A DNA stretch of 64,000 bases from Natrinema mahii (GTDB taxonomy: Archaea > Halobacteriota > Halobacteria > Halobacteriales > Natrialbaceae). The DNA is taken from assembly GCA_000690595.2 (NCBI GenBank), contig JHUT02000007.1:402-64401 (forward strand), written 5' to 3'. The notes under the pieces are model-generated. The model saw only the letters and a list, made by a program, of their open reading frames with translations, made no database searches and had not been told where the DNA came from. This document shows positions 5,341 through 12,207 of this stretch, one piece after another (position 1 is the first letter of the stretch; every line of letters begins with the position of its first letter). Made by a program: the position numbers and the translations under genes.

Positions 5341-5440
5341 ACCCGGACGGCAGCTACAGTTCCCACTGGAACAGCCGAGAAACGGATCGGTGTTCACGGC
5401 ACCGATCCGCGGTAGCTCCCGTACCAACGCTACGGAAGCC
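5341..5440 (+). promoter_or_regulatory. Structured leader of module ORF, copy 1
   Basis: The 100 bases before the ATG fold into successive hairpins: CGGC (5348-5351)/GCCG (5374-5377) enclosing GTTCC/GGAAC (5359-5372); a perfect 10-bp stem CGGATCGGTG (5383-5392)/CACCGATCCG (5400-5409); and CCGTA (5419-5423)/TACGG (5431-5435). The last competes with GTAGC (5412-5416)/GCTAC (5429-5433). The last hairpin covers the start of GGAAG, a possible ribosome-binding site six bases before the ATG. The same layout recurs before copy 2 with changed bases, which suggests that structure is selected. Confidence 0.5.
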
Positions 5441-5803
5441 ATGACAGACGACAATTCACGGGACCATGAAGGCCCCGACCGACCCGACGTATCGATCCCA
5501 GCCGCGTCCGATGCCGAACTGACGGACGGCACCGTCCGCGAGCGCCTCGAGGCGATCGACAGACTCACGCGGTCGTTGCTCGCCGACATCCAAGCCGGAG
5601 CGGGAGCGACCTCGATCGCAGACGCCGACGATCGCTCCGAGGCCTGTCGGCACGTTCGGGAGATCAGAGCCGAGGCCAGCCACGTCGGCCTTCTGCTGTT
5701 CGGCCCGGAGATGGCGATTCCGTACGATCCAGCGGCTCACGATGGTCTTTCTTGGTCTGGATCCGGGGTCGCTCGAGGACGGGACGATCCGTCGCTACGA
5801 TAA
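5441..5803 (+). CDS. Small conserved acidic protein, module copy 1
   Basis: 120 residues of unknown function. It is almost identical over residues 1-97 to the protein at 6870-7277: both have TVRERLEAIDR.TRSLLADIQ, RSEACRHVREIRAEASHVGL and LFGPEMAIPYDPAAHDG. The sequence is helical with no membrane segment. After AAHDG the two copies diverge, and here the last 20 residues overlap the next gene in another frame. The ATG at 5441 was chosen because similarity to copy 2 begins there. The gene diverges from a wHTH repressor and is followed by a TumE-like/HVO_A0114-like pair, suggesting a role in a toxin-antitoxin-type module. Confidence 0.72.
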   Translation: MTDDNSRDHEGPDRPDVSIPAASDAELTDGTVRERLEAIDRLTRSLLADIQAGAGATSIADADDRSEACRHVREIRAEASHVGLLLFGPEMAIPYDPAAHDGLSWSGSGVARGRDDPSLR

Positions 5804-6785: not shown

Positions 6786-6869
6786 GAGACGACGACCTCG
6801 TCTCAGGAGAAAGCGGCTCGGTGCCCTGACACCGGGCCGCGACAGCTCCCGTATCAAGCTACGGAAGCC
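6786..6869 (+). promoter_or_regulatory. Structured leader of module ORF, copy 2
   Basis: Before the ATG at 6870 are three stems: GAGACGA (6786-6792)/TCGTCTC (6798-6804); GCGGCTCGGTG (6813-6823)/CACCGGGCCGC (6830-6840), 11 pairs with one G-U; and CCGTA (6849-6853)/TACGG (6860-6864), with competing AGCT/AGCT (6844-6847, 6857-6860). The second and third match the copy 1 leader in position, while the second stem's sequence has changed on both arms. The third overlaps GGAAG next to the start codon. Confidence 0.5.
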
Positions 6870-7277
6870 ATGTCCGACGACAATTCACGGGACCATGAAG
6901 GTCCCGACCGACCCGACGTATCGATCCCAGCCGCGTCCGATGCCGAACTGACGGATGGCACCGTCCGCGAGCGCCTCGAGGCGATCGACCGAGTCACTCG
7001 GTCGTTGCTCGCAGATATCCAATCCGGGGCAGAAACCACGCCGACTGTGGACGCCGACGATCGCTCCGAGGCCTGCCGACACGTTCGAGAGATCAGAGCC
7101 GAGGCCAGCCATGTCGGCCTCCTGCTGTTCGGCCCGGAGATGGCGATTCCCTACGACCCGGCGGCCCACGACGGCGACACGCCGAGGTTTTCTCGCAGTG
7201 GCTCGCTCACGACGGCGTTTCGAGGTCCGGAACCCGGGTCGCTCGATGAGAATCGGCAGCGGGACAGCGATGGATAG
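6870..7277 (+). CDS. Small conserved acidic protein, module copy 2
   Basis: 135 residues, paralogue of the protein at 5441-5803 with near identity through PYDPAAHDG. The tail differs: TAFRGPEPGSLDENRQRDSDG. In the same frame this tail aligns with the first residues of the TumE-like protein of copy 1 (MVFLGLDPGSLED), with a matching DNA stretch gggtcgctcga. The end of this gene therefore seems to include the decayed start of a lost toxin gene. No toxin-antitoxin pair follows here. Function unknown. Confidence 0.72.
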   Translation: MSDDNSRDHEGPDRPDVSIPAASDAELTDGTVRERLEAIDRVTRSLLADIQSGAETTPTVDADDRSEACRHVREIRAEASHVGLLLFGPEMAIPYDPAAHDGDTPRFSRSGSLTTAFRGPEPGSLDENRQRDSDG

Positions 7278-7707
7278 GTAACGGCTTTCGTTCGTTTCGG
7301 GGTTCGTCTGTACGGGCTCGGTTTCTCTTCGGTTTCGGCTTCCTGAAGGTCGATTCTGGTCTAATTAGAGAACCGGTCGCCATCCAGGGACGCAGATAGG
7401 CAAGAAACGACGGTTCGAATTCACATGCTCGTACATACGAGCCGGTAGCTCCTAGTTTTTCGACTCACTGAACGGCCCCATTCTGCCTCCAAACCGGCGG
7501 AAATTATCGTCTACTTTTGATAAATTCTATTCACATTAGTAGCCCAACTCGAGATATGCACATGAAGATTCGCGTCTTGTGTGCATATTCGGGAATCGGA
7601 TTCTATTGACTTACAACCCCTGAGAGGGAGGTTTAGATCATTTAGTATCGGTTGAACCAATTCCCCAGGCAAAACAATTTTCGTGCCGCGACTTATTGTA
7701 CAGGACA
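7278..7707. other. Gene-free left edge of the AT-rich island
   Basis: 430 bases where composition changes from GC-rich to AT-rich (from about 7400). It holds CTCGTA-CA-TACGAG near 7427 and a long hairpin at 7554-7588. No open reading frame with coding character, no tRNA and no integrase attachment site could be recognised. The promoter of the unknown gene at 7708 should lie in its last 50 bases. Confidence 0.6.
7554..7588. repeat. Long imperfect hairpin at island edge
   Basis: ATATGCACA (7554-7562) pairs with TGTGCATAT (7580-7588). Inside, AAGA and TCTT extend the stem around a TTCGCG loop. It may be an operator, a terminator facing left, or a trace of integration. It shares the gcatat/atatgc theme with the palindromic patch near 5250. 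Confidence 0.4.
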
Positions 7708-8535
7708 ATGACAGAGCTGGAAGATTTTAATCTCCCAACTGGAACTTTCTATCCTACGTTGGTTGAATGGGGAAGAACCGAACCTGAGACAAAGTCCTCG
7801 GATCAGTATGAGCCAATTTTCCGAGAACTCCCTAATTATTCACCTGGAGACCCAAACGACCCTTCCGAAGGCTTTCAGGATCATAAAATCATCAGAGTAG
7901 ATTCAAATACTAATAATTTTGAACAAGTGGATTTTGAGTGTGTAGGTGTATCTCGGTTCTTCAAAGAGTCATTCAAGACGCAAGAAGCATTTGTGGATGG
8001 TGAATTACGGGATGTGAAAATTCGTGAAACAGATTCTTCTGATGGCTTTTGGGCCGGGAACATGGTGTTCTTTGAAGGACGTGAAAAAATAGCTCGAAGA
8101 GCGAAAAGTTCTCTCCAAGCCCAATTCCTTGAAAAGATTAGGATTTCAGACGTGACTCTTTTTCCCGGTATTTATCGGAAATTAACCGAGTTCACTGGCC
8201 CAACAACGGATGGCATAAGTGTTGATGTGGTGGAAAGATTGCAATTGAAAGGAACAGGAGACATATCGAAGTTACAATTATTTGGAGAGGACGAGGTCCT
8301 CGAGGAGTACGCTGAATCCTCCCAGAACATGGACACAGTATCACATATTGTGGGGAGATTCAATTTCTTTGGCTATCGAATCACGGCAGGAATCTCTAAA
8401 GACAAAATCAGGATTTACGGTTCTCCAACAAAACGGGGCGGTTCTGATTCAGAAGAAGCACCATTGGTGACCCTCGCCTTCCTGAGGAAAATAACCGAAC
8501 TCTCTCTATCCAAACAACGAGATTACGAGGTCTGA
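7708..8535 (+). CDS. Unknown soluble protein A1 of AT-rich island
   Basis: 275 residues with no recognised domain. The ATG at 7708 is preferred over a TTG 12 bases upstream. No membrane segment is present. The C-terminal 200 residues contain, in order, FEGREKIARRAKSSLQAQF, RLQLKGTGD, GYRITAGISKDKIRIYGS and PLVTLAFLRKI. A similar series of blocks occurs in the protein at 10803-11693, suggesting distant homology. The codon use and base composition are AT-rich compared with genes outside 7.4-12 kb, a sign of recent acquisition. The next gene starts two bases after the stop, so the two form an operon. Confidence 0.7.
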   Translation: MTELEDFNLPTGTFYPTLVEWGRTEPETKSSDQYEPIFRELPNYSPGDPNDPSEGFQDHKIIRVDSNTNNFEQVDFECVGVSRFFKESFKTQEAFVDGELRDVKIRETDSSDGFWAGNMVFFEGREKIARRAKSSLQAQFLEKIRISDVTLFPGIYRKLTEFTGPTTDGISVDVVERLQLKGTGDISKLQLFGEDEVLEEYAESSQNMDTVSHIVGRFNFFGYRITAGISKDKIRIYGSPTKRGGSDSEEAPLVTLAFLRKITELSLSKQRDYEV

Positions 8536-8537
8536 CC

Positions 8538-9176
8538 ATGGTGGATATCTCCAAATCTTCTATAATAATTTGGCTGAAAGAGCCAGAATGGGGGGCTATA
8601 GCATTACTGATCTCTCTTGGAGCCATAATCACGGGTATTTTTTCTTCATTCCATATTTTGGTAGATACTCTTCTGGTTATAACTGGGGGTGCAGCAATAA
8701 TTGGGTGGGCTTGGGTGACTTTTTGGCTTTCCGGGATTAGAGTTACCTGTTTACAAACAGAACCAATAACTTCAGCCGAGGCGCAACACAAGCACGTCCA
8801 CTTCTTCCCAGATGGATATGCCGAATTTGAGGTATACATTGGAGTTCCTGAATGGGTTTCCCGATTTAGTATTGAGATTCATCATGACGGACCCTTTGAT
8901 TTCCAGCCTTGGGACCTCCCTGCCCCAGTCTCATTCAGAAACGGGGTAATTCACGTAGAGGGAGATCTTGACGAAGTGCCGTTCGTTTTACGGTTTGGAG
9001 GTGAACCCGAAGAAATTGGAGACGCGACTTACCGAGTCATATTCAAAGAAAAAGACAGTGAGAAAACACTCCATACGATGTCATTGAACGGGGATCGTAT
9101 GGTAAAGACCGATTCTGATATAGAGGATGTGGACCAAGAAATCACCGAAGAGTTAGGGATTTCAGTCTCAGAGTAG
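8538..9176 (+). CDS. Unknown membrane-anchored protein B1 of AT-rich island
   Basis: 212 residues. Two N-terminal hydrophobic segments (about residues 19-38 and 41-65: GAIALLISLGAIITGIF and LLVITGGAAIIGWAWVTFWL) are followed by a soluble, probably beta-rich domain with HVHFFPDGYAEFEVYIGVPEW and PFVLRFGG. No known family was recognised. It is tightly linked to the upstream A1 gene (two bases) and ends 26 bases from the convergent PCNA gene. Membrane anchoring of a sensor- or effector-like domain is inference. Confidence 0.7.
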   Translation: MVDISKSSIIIWLKEPEWGAIALLISLGAIITGIFSSFHILVDTLLVITGGAAIIGWAWVTFWLSGIRVTCLQTEPITSAEAQHKHVHFFPDGYAEFEVYIGVPEWVSRFSIEIHHDGPFDFQPWDLPAPVSFRNGVIHVEGDLDEVPFVLRFGGEPEEIGDATYRVIFKEKDSEKTLHTMSLNGDRMVKTDSDIEDVDQEITEELGISVSE

Positions 9177-9202
9177 ATGAAGTAGAGGCAGTCCGCATAG
9201 AT

Positions 9203-9940
9203 TCAGTTATTCTCAATTCGTGGGCTAAGCTGGAACTCTACTTTGCCCTCTCCAATTTCATATGAAATTTTTGCAGGTCGATCATGAGCCATCTCAATCG
9301 TAACCTCAGTATCCTTCGGAATTACAGAGGAAATTTTGTCTAACCACTTAAGACTAAACTTACTGTCAATAGTTGCATATTCAATATCAACCACGTCTGT
9401 TTCTTTCAACATACGCTTGGTATGATCTGAATCACCCCTAGCCTCCATCTCTGCGACTTCTTTTTCTTTATCAATATTAAATCGGAGATGATCACCGAAT
9501 GCATTTGCTGCTCTTATCGCTTTTCGAAACTCGGACTGTTCAATTACAATCTTGGCCGGAAGTTCCCAGTCAGGCGGATTTGGTCCCGTCGAAATGTACT
9601 CTAAGTCCACTAGACTAAGCCCCGAGGCCTGGCCGTCGACTTCCATGTATACCCTTCGTTCTTCTTCGTTAAGGTGTAGGTTCACTAGTGAAGACTCAGA
9701 GGACATTTCTAAAATCGTCAATATTTTATCTAACCCCAATCCAATCTGTCCTCCGTCTGACTCATAGTCTCTAAAAGCCGCTGGTAAGAGCTCAACTTCC
9801 ACCATCAAGACCTGTGCTTCATCAGCGGCACTTGCTGTAACACACCCGTCATTCAAATCTAATATAATCTCATCCGTAACCACCTCTAGGGGTTCAAGTG
9901 TATGAGTTAGAACTCCTGCTTCAATTTCAGCGTCAAACAT
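9203..9940 (-). CDS. PCNA-type sliding clamp paralogue
   Basis: 245 residues, the normal clamp length. Clamp landmarks include the N-terminal MFDAEIEAGVLTHTLEPL, domain-boundary LPAKIVIEQSEFRKAI, SLKWLDKISSVIPKDTEV and the terminal LSPRIENN, matching the LAPRI-type end where PIP-box partners dock. Chromosomal haloarchaeal PCNA is more acidic and GC-rich, so this is a diverged, AT-rich extra copy, likely from a mobile element. PCNA rings tether polymerase, ligase and nucleases to DNA. It is the last gene of a leftward trio with the unknown genes at 10803 and 9989. An AT-rich stretch before the ATG (about 9955-9975) may hold its own promoter. Confidence 0.9.
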   Translation of the reverse strand: MFDAEIEAGVLTHTLEPLEVVTDEIILDLNDGCVTASAADEAQVLMVEVELLPAAFRDYESDGGQIGLGLDKILTILEMSSESSLVNLHLNEEERRVYMEVDGQASGLSLVDLEYISTGPNPPDWELPAKIVIEQSEFRKAIRAANAFGDHLRFNIDKEKEVAEMEARGDSDHTKRMLKETDVVDIEYATIDSKFSLKWLDKISSVIPKDTEVTIEMAHDRPAKISYEIGEGKVEFQLSPRIENN

Positions 9941-9988
9941 GATGTATATGAATATAACCGCATTTGTTATAGTTTTCTAGTATCTTCG

Positions 9989-10801
9989 TCATCCCTTCAG
10001 GTAGTAGTTGATAATCATCAGACGAATATATCGGATGACTTCTTCATCAATCTCTAAATAGGGGGGATGGATTTCCGCATGGTCTGGGAAGAACTCAACC
10101 TCCGTCTTTGCTTGACCTTTACTTGCCAGTAACAAACTCACATCAAACTCTTCCCTCCGAATCCATTCATCCAAAGTTAGGTTACTGTCTACAGGATGAA
10201 TAATGAACTGGGCGCCGCTCATTGTTCCTGATCTAGTCTCTTTGAAAGCTCGATTAAGGAAACTGGCTAAAGATCCTACATTGGCAAGCTCTTCTCTTAA
10301 CTTGGAAAAGGGATATCGAAATTGGACTCGAACATGGATTCCGCTGATTTTTCGGCTCTCAACAGAGACATTCGGTCTTTCCCGTTGATCTTCTGTATCC
10401 GGAATAAGACTGAAGTCGATTTCGTGAGGATATCTCGCCTCTGCGTGCGTGGCTTTCAAACTCCCATGCGTACTATTCCATGTTGGCTCCTCAATTTCAA
10501 TTCGGCCCTTGCTCAACTCCTCAGTTTCATCAATCACCTCCTCAACAATCTCTTTGCCAACTGCAACTGTTGTTGCCTCTTGGGGACTGAACGTTAGTTC
10601 AAGAGTGGTCTCAATAGGGTTGGCTCTGGTAAGAAGACCTCTTATTCGCCAAGTTATTCCAGTGACGATAGGACTAATGAGTTCTCGATCGAAGACTCGG
10701 AGGACTACTTTGTCAATTATCTTTCCGAACAACCAGATACCAATAACTAATAGACCCCCCTGAAGCGTCTGAACAGTTAATAGTGAATCTATAAGTGCCA
10801 A
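9989..10801 (-). CDS. Unknown membrane-anchored protein B2 of AT-rich island
   Basis: 270 residues from a TTG at 10801, chosen because GAGGAGG sits eight bases upstream; no ATG is available near the start, and the longer TTG start at 10819 would overlap that site. One N-terminal hydrophobic segment (GGLLVIGIWLFGKII) is followed by a region ending HVRVQFRYPFSKLREEL, TEVEFFPDHAEIHPPYL and RYIRLMIINYYLKG. No family recognised. It follows the A2 gene with a one-base gap, mirroring the A1-B1 arrangement, and precedes the PCNA gene by 48 bases. Confidence 0.68.
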   Translation of the reverse strand: MALIDSLLTVQTLQGGLLVIGIWLFGKIIDKVVLRVFDRELISPIVTGITWRIRGLLTRANPIETTLELTFSPQEATTVAVGKEIVEEVIDETEELSKGRIEIEEPTWNSTHGSLKATHAEARYPHEIDFSLIPDTEDQRERPNVSVESRKISGIHVRVQFRYPFSKLREELANVGSLASFLNRAFKETRSGTMSGAQFIIHPVDSNLTLDEWIRREEFDVSLLLASKGQAKTEVEFFPDHAEIHPPYLEIDEEVIRYIRLMIINYYLKG

Positions 10802-10802
10802 A

Positions 10803-11693
10803 CTAATCGTCCTCCTCAATCGCTTTATATATTGAATCGTTACTTGCAGCCTCCGCTTGAGTGGTCAACGAAATTGTCGTTTCTACGTCCCGATGGATTA
10901 CTGGCAGAACATGGTTCACTAGGAGTTCTAAGTAGGTCGAGATAGTGGCGGTAGAATATATACGAATGAGACCATCTCGAGACATACCAACTGTGAGAGT
11001 CGTTCCACCCACTAACTCCTGCGTTTGGAACATATGCGTTTTCAGTTTTCCTCGACTCCGCTGTCGCTGATAGTCATCTACTTCCTCAAGACCATCTCCC
11101 TTCATCTGGACACTAGTAAGTTCCTTTTCAGGATAATCACCGATGATCGTGTCCATTAGTTTGGCATTTAGACTTTCTCGAACTTGTTTTAGCGCATTAT
11201 GATCTAGTCGAGTTTTATTAATCGTCGATCCCAGATCATCATGTTCTGATCGGAGAATCGCAGCTGCCCCTTCAGCAACCTCCCTAGCACCCAGTATGCA
11301 CAAATAATAGTGATTCTGGTGATTGAATATCAGAAATCGGGCTTCAGTGTTGTCTAATACAAGTATTTGCTGCCCACGGTACTTCACAGTTTTATCTTTG
11401 TCAATAACGATGGTTCCTAGGATAGCCTCTTTCCCTTTTGGGGACGTGACCAACTGAGCTTCGTCAATAGAGGTAGTTCGTACCACCTCTCCATCTTGTT
11501 TAAAGATATCTGGGACAAATGTGGTGTCAGTGTCGATGTCGGTTGAGATACTCTCATAGAAAGTATGGTTATGTAATTCTTCACGAAGTGTCTGGAGGTC
11601 AAGAGTATAGCCCGTCGGAATATTCAACCAGAAAATCTTCCCGCTATATTGCCCTTCGACATGAAGCGGGCTTTCGCCCTTTGTTTCACTCAT
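10803..11693 (-). CDS. Unknown soluble protein A2 of AT-rich island
   Basis: 296 residues, no membrane segment, no recognised domain. The middle and C-terminal parts carry LGAREVAEGAAAILRSE, SVQMKGDGLEEVDDY, TTLTVGMSRDGLIRIYST and YLELLVNHVLPVI, in the same order as comparable blocks in the protein at 7708-8535. It is the first gene of a leftward A2-B2-PCNA operon. Composition is AT-rich like the rest of the island. Function unknown; the shared block pattern is an observation by eye and needs a profile comparison. Confidence 0.7.
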   Translation of the reverse strand: MSETKGESPLHVEGQYSGKIFWLNIPTGYTLDLQTLREELHNHTFYESISTDIDTDTTFVPDIFKQDGEVVRTTSIDEAQLVTSPKGKEAILGTIVIDKDKTVKYRGQQILVLDNTEARFLIFNHQNHYYLCILGAREVAEGAAAILRSEHDDLGSTINKTRLDHNALKQVRESLNAKLMDTIIGDYPEKELTSVQMKGDGLEEVDDYQRQRSRGKLKTHMFQTQELVGGTTLTVGMSRDGLIRIYSTATISTYLELLVNHVLPVIHRDVETTISLTTQAEAASNDSIYKAIEEDD

Positions 11694-12207
11694 TTAAATC
11701 ACACTCGAGACAGTCGCTCTTGCGTTATCCATATATCCTGTAGATAATAAAACCGAGCCAACCGTACCGGAAGTAGAGGATTTGCACTGTTCCGTCGCAT
11801 AGGGGAGAAGGACTAGATCCCTCTTATTCATACACATAAAGATGGGTGGAGGTGTTTATTTCTCCCAAACATTAGGAATTTGTGCATATCCCCTCCGAAC
11901 CACCGAGCGGATGAGATTGAAATTAGGATCGACGAGAAGTTAGAACCGTAGCCGCGGTCCTGTTCATACGGTTATCGGTTCTAGGACCAATAAACAACCC
12001 CTGTTTCGCGTGCTTCAATTGGAGATTCGCGTGCGGAGACGGAAGAGTGCGTTGTAGTTTTTTGACTCAGTCCCTTGGGGACACTCTTTCCCGTCGGAAC
12101 TGCTCTCCCCGACATCTCGGCCGGAACCAGGGACTCCGTCCACTGCGCTACGCGCCCTCGAGCGAACCCACCACCACAAAAATAGACCAATCCCCTCCCG
12201 AGTCCGC
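11694..12207. other. Gene-free right edge of the AT-rich island with tRNA-like remnant
   Basis: 514 bases. The left part is AT-rich and should hold the promoter of the A2-B2-PCNA operon. Around 11950-12000 composition returns to GC-rich. Positions 12085-12157 (reading left) resemble the 5' part of a tRNA-Arg gene (separate entry). No coding region or integrase was recognised. Confidence 0.55.
12085..12157 (-). other. Degenerate tRNA-Arg-like sequence (possible integration scar)
   Basis: Read on the minus strand it begins GGGCGCGTAGCGCAGTGGAC and continues with CTGGTTCCGG, like the acceptor, D-arm and CCG anticodon region of haloarchaeal tRNA-Arg. The D-stem pairs poorly, the 3' acceptor strand CGCGCCC is missing and there is no TTCGAAT loop, so it cannot be a working tRNA. 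Because it borders an AT-rich island it may be the leftover of integration at a tRNA gene. Confidence 0.35.

Follow-up and report, generated by a model that had tools for sequence, protein, structure and literature searches.

Why does Natrinema mahii carry a second, strongly diverged sliding clamp at the end of an operon of unknown genes? Extra PCNAs, on record in haloarchaea since 2012, have had no function assigned to them, and whether they are functional, or specialised, was considered a matter for experiments (PMC3404096). We analysed such a gene within a window of 64,000 nucleotides, the whole stretch of DNA covered here (on contig C6). As extra haloarchaeal PCNAs as such are already known, the new result is the company of this clamp: it is the last gene of a recurrent cassette with the order A-B-PCNA (Table 1). 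This is also the more informative fact that the original prediction, made from the sequence of the locus, had missed.

Table 1. Positions in the window of the island and its genes
Feature	Position	Strand	Basis
AT-rich island with C-D and A-B-PCNA, variable site	7619..12071	.	synteny breaks versus relatives
gene C of the convergent pair, perhaps remotely related to A	7708..8535	+	profile score
gene D, two predicted membrane helices and soluble domain, partner of C	8538..9176	+	hydrophobicity scan
diverged sliding clamp (PCNA), last of the three cassette genes	9203..9940	-	245 aa, both Pfam halves
gene B, predicted N-terminal membrane anchor (about residues 13-42) and soluble domain	9989..10819	-	hydrophobic segment, AF2
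gene A, predicted RdgC-fold protein, 296 aa	10803..11693	-	AF2 model, Foldseek, VIA-align

A second clamp with a changed surface

The clamp ORF is intact, begins with ATG and encodes a protein with the C-terminus LSPRIENN, in agreement with the LSPRI end noted originally. Pfam domains PCNA_N (27.1 bits, cut-off 20.3) and PCNA_C (32 bits, cut-off 23) together span its full length. The general PCNA domains are thus both present, and the NCBI clamp model NF002222, a subfamily model, was narrowly missed (198.3 bits, cut-off 207). The closest PDB structure is Haloferax volcanii PCNA (3hi8, residues 1-244, E 1e-45). The original prediction of an extra, full-length and highly diverged clamp would have fallen if this were the only PCNA of the genome. 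One further PCNA exists, a typical housekeeping copy on contig C4 (G000:C4:86811-87548), and the two are 35% identical. Identity to housekeeping PCNAs in general is 35-39%, and 39% is the best identity to any other PCNA in 125 genomes of the family and 391 genomes of the class Halobacteria, sets that hold part of each group; plasmid and phage searches gave no closer relative. Of the 142 columns that are invariant among 21 housekeeping clamps, 70 are matched. The predicted lower acidity is found in net charge (-29 versus -41 for the housekeeping PCNA) and in a higher content of K+R (9.4% versus 5.3%), with almost the same content of D+E (21.2% versus 22.0%).

Numbering of functional sites was taken from the structure paper of H. 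volcanii PCNA, in which subunits are joined by the ion pair R72-D172 (PMC2737543). The cassette clamp shares with this protein its length, two domains, ion-pair positions (here K72-D172) and a basic residue at pore position 143 (R), and differs from it in DPANV (DEAQV), K205 in the pore (S) and two of three positions of the PIP pocket, where M46 is kept, I122 is replaced by P and M239 by Q. M46, I122 and D172 are present in all 21 housekeeping clamps, and position 239 is M in 17 and V in four of them. Since the pair K72-D172 is kept, formation of a trimeric ring is plausible from sequence; the partner surface is altered.

The original prediction also proposed that the clamp forms heterotrimers with the housekeeping copy or sequesters its partners. 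In this explanation mixed trimers with housekeeping or viral PCNA, or capture of partners, would throttle replication, and such a mixed ring might act as the cassette's effector. Retention of K72 and D172, a C-terminal SPRI close to APRI and the changes at 122 and 239 are consistent with it. However, the altered pocket speaks against simple competition for shared partners, both ion-pair residues are replaced (by S and N) in the related clamp of N. zhouii, so that pairing with host subunits is not conserved, and linkage of the clamp to A and B is left unexplained. We regard this explanation as quite unlikely, and the original interpretation as a whole is partly supported.

The island and the A-B-PCNA cassette

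As predicted, the clamp gene is AT-rich and sits away from replication genes, downstream of A and B. It belongs to an island of 4.45 kb with 43% G+C in a genome of 68% G+C, the drop lying between about 7.6 and 12.07 kb. The island has five genes, with the pair C-D facing A-B-PCNA. In one relative (G065, gnd protein 98% identical), synteny ends at 7618 and restarts at 12072 with 634 bp between; in another (G075, 99% identical), about 0.4 kb lies between window positions 7395 and 12080. Hence two close relatives have only about 0.4-0.6 kb at this site. A third (G064) has 6.2 kb of other cargo including transposase-like genes, and two of six relatives examined (G068, G077) have an Orc1/Cdc6-like gene there. 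Because contents of the site vary among close relatives, the island was either gained recently or marks a place where DNA is exchanged repeatedly. Searches of its flanks gave neither att-like repeats nor a tRNA. The Orc1/Cdc6-like genes (L098, 12040-13266; L099, 11668-12894; window orientation) were called by reading of sequences. Just left of the island, a duplicated ORF forms a 300-bp direct repeat of 91% identity (5429-5728 and 6858-7157), and the same arrangement is present in G065.

Gene A is predicted to have an RdgC fold. Its AF2 model (pLDDT 79.9, pTM 0.78) had E. coli RdgC as the best Foldseek match in the PDB (prob 0.99, E 1.2e-3), and VIA-align also placed RdgC on top (Z 11.0, 217 residues, rmsd 5.0), followed by CENP-L/Iml3 (Z 8-8.7), a known structural relative of RdgC (PMC11077077). 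In a viral structure library RdgC-family phage proteins were on top, and matches at E 1e-3 or better numbered 12, with five RdgC or recombination-associated proteins, two exonucleases, one TATA-binding protein and otherwise unnamed or uncharacterised proteins. RexA (8TWQ) was absent among the best 50 VIA-align matches listed. RdgC dimerises into a ring on duplex DNA (PMC11077077); from its modelled fold, A probably forms a dimer, ring- or horseshoe-shaped, that binds duplex DNA. The three clamp-linked A proteins have in common, unlike clamp-less A, Q at position 1 and an aromatic residue at position 8 of a short stretch (QYSGKIFW, QYSGKIFW, QISGILYY). We do not call it a PIP-box, since it has G at position 4 and forms strand 13-23 in the modelled fold.

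Gene B, whose start codon is uncertain (TTG at 10819 or 10801), is predicted to be membrane-anchored, and all five intact homologues have a single hydrophobic segment. Its AF2 model is weaker than that of A (pLDDT 68) and consists of an N-terminal membrane helix and a domain without a specific match. Fold matches with Z 6-8 (SerRS N-terminal domain, guanidino kinases, KA1, CENP-N, RnlA) were too mixed to name the domain. The conserved C-terminus NYYL was rejected as a clamp-linked motif because it lies in a predicted helix and is present without the clamp too.

Searches with A and B and reading of the loci found eight distinct A-B pairs, B adjoining A in every related locus. The PCNA gene follows in three of the eight: the window, N. 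zhouii (G078, L027) and a genome of another family (G382, L045). The other five (G077, G030, G367, G341, G247) are without a clamp; G367 has the whole A-B region in two identical copies (L042, L043) about 28 kb apart. Carriage is patchy, with A in seven of the 391 class genomes. In a PCNA tree of 44 rows, in which the two open pieces of the G382 clamp were joined into one entry, the three cassette clamps group as a clade (support 97/87). The other 41 clamps, which comprise housekeeping, viral, plasmid and further accessory ones, are separate from it, so that the cassette clamps stand outside the chromosomal PCNA group of the genus. Their branches are long, and part of this support could be attraction. 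The A proteins of the same three loci also form one clade (100/100). As both clades coincide with the presence of the clamp, the clamp was apparently added to this A-B lineage a single time and then kept. From their sequences, A, B and the clamp form a single operon that is inherited as a unit.

Two further sets of PCNAs were seen in these genomes. Another conserved chromosomal paralogue occurs in several genomes of the family (L048, L053-L056, L059, L060, L063), mostly beside an ORF with RGILSxADRAYLRG, and forms one clade (99/93) in the 44-row tree. Genome G119 has two PCNAs (L065 5069-5812 and L008), both within the housekeeping clade.

Reading frames differ in their state. A is intact in all eight distinct loci, and B is broken in three, by frameshifts in N. 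zhouii and G382 and by an in-frame stop in G341. The clamp gene of G382 is frameshifted too, and among the three clamp-bearing loci all genes are intact only in the window copy. These breaks, with B frameshifted in two of three clamp-bearing loci, and the long branches would fit a clamp that is a relic of past carriage by an element and under weak constraint. Against this, the window clamp has stayed intact over 245 codons at 35-39% identity with both PCNA domains kept, and gene order is conserved across families. A decaying passenger is very improbable in our judgement.

Of the convergent pair C-D, the C family is present in 34 of the 391 Halobacteria genomes. The profile score between A and C (28-32, versus at most 22.8 in 60 shuffled decoys) is suggestive only of C being a remote relative of A. 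C-D pairs are also present in G037 and G003, and such pairs are located within or next to groups of genes that, from gene order, we read as provirus-like. In some genomes a C-family gene is followed by a Schlafen AlbA_2-like gene (L033 7780-9260, L111, L117, L123, L124; with Pfam support for L033 alone), and genes for small membrane proteins often follow as well.

None of A, B, C and D matched Pfam, NCBIfam or PADLOC defence models. A viral origin of the cassette was considered and dropped: searches of viral contigs gave no relatives of A, B, C and the clamp, but A and B hit PHROGs 24098 and 24283, families without an assigned function. No relative of the L042 A protein was found in phage records and none of the window A protein in plasmids.

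A possible exclusion module

We tentatively favour the explanation, to which we give somewhat less than an even chance, that a mobile A-B cassette acts as a RexAB-type exclusion (abortive-infection) module, with the clamp as an optional third subunit. In accordance with it, A-B-PCNA recurs in the same order at three loci of two families; the clamp clade and the A clade both coincide with the presence of the clamp; B and D have predicted membrane helices and a hydrophobicity scan gave none for A and C; A, with its predicted RdgC fold, and B have the layout of RexA/RexB and Sbash gp30/gp31; carriage is patchy at a variable site, with B broken in three of eight loci and A in none; and C-D pairs lie in or beside provirus-like gene sets. 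Weighing against it are the lack of defence-database matches for A to D and of RexA and RdgC profile matches, one helix in B versus four in RexB, the long branches of the clamps and the intact state of all three genes in the window copy only.

According to this model, the co-inherited operon would supply an A protein that, from structure prediction, probably sits on duplex DNA, and a membrane protein B that would be the output arm, like RexB. The dedicated clamp would load on DNA with active forks, e.g. that of a replicating virus, and deliver or hold A there; A would then signal to B, and the energy state or growth of the infected cell would collapse. In this role the clamp would serve sensing or targeting, not replication. 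The clamp may bring A to replicating DNA, and its role is the weakest step of this explanation; the defence function as a whole is an inference. The more specific version, in which a clamp recruited to an archaeal RexAB-like exclusion system senses invading DNA together with the RdgC-fold ring and signals to a membrane effector, we consider doubtful.

The fold of A also fits a module for DNA transactions without a defence role, in which an RdgC-like regulator of recombination or replication with its own clamp aids replication, recombination or integration of a mobile element. E. coli RdgC has a role in recombination and replication restart (PMC11077077), PCNA is often carried by haloviruses and haloarchaeal plasmids according to the phage and plasmid searches, and the Orc1/Cdc6-like genes of two relatives lie at the same site. 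Yet genes for a replicase, an integrase or a primase are absent from the island, neither viral nor plasmid clamps are the sister group of the cassette clamps, five A-B pairs lack a clamp, and RdgC function has no known membrane-anchored partner. This explanation appears unlikely to us.

Comparison with known systems

The crystal structure of lambda RexA, a DNA binder that excludes phages together with the membrane protein RexB, revealed unexpected homology to RdgC (PMC11077077). Gp30/gp31 of mycobacteriophage Sbash are organised like rexAB and act in phage defence, with a proposed loss of membrane potential (PMC6426596), and a RexAB-type system in P. putida was described in a 2026 paper (PMC12894663). 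Like RexAB and Sbash gp30/gp31, A-B places a soluble protein of RdgC fold (RexA has 279 aa), for A in a predicted model only, beside a membrane-protein gene on mobile DNA. Unlike them, it is archaeal, has an added sliding-clamp gene and is unmatched by the RexA model; B combines one predicted membrane helix with a large soluble domain, and RexB has four helices. PF15969, PF15968 and PADLOC RexA/RexB had no match in the cassette and matched the lambda proteins strongly. Since sequence models of RexA, RexB and RdgC were unmatched, we call A-B RexAB-like in layout, by analogy and not by membership.

RdgC itself (E. coli 2owl and 2owy, and the phage family) resembles A in the fold over most of the protein (217-224 residues, Z about 11). 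A differs in falling below detection by PF04381, which has no match across the whole genome and matches the E. coli control, and in its gene context of a membrane protein and a clamp.

With accessory haloarchaeal PCNAs of viruses, plasmids and chromosomes (PMC3404096; PhiCh1, phiH, CGphi46) the cassette clamp has in common that it is a second full-length PCNA on acquired DNA; it differs in its separate clade, its fixed association with A-B and its changed PIP-pocket positions. Two specific partner genes are now linked to one lineage of extra PCNAs, so that an assignment for such a clamp can be tested. If A-B is an exclusion module, the RexAB layout would extend to archaea, and the clamp would connect the replication machinery to a membrane output.
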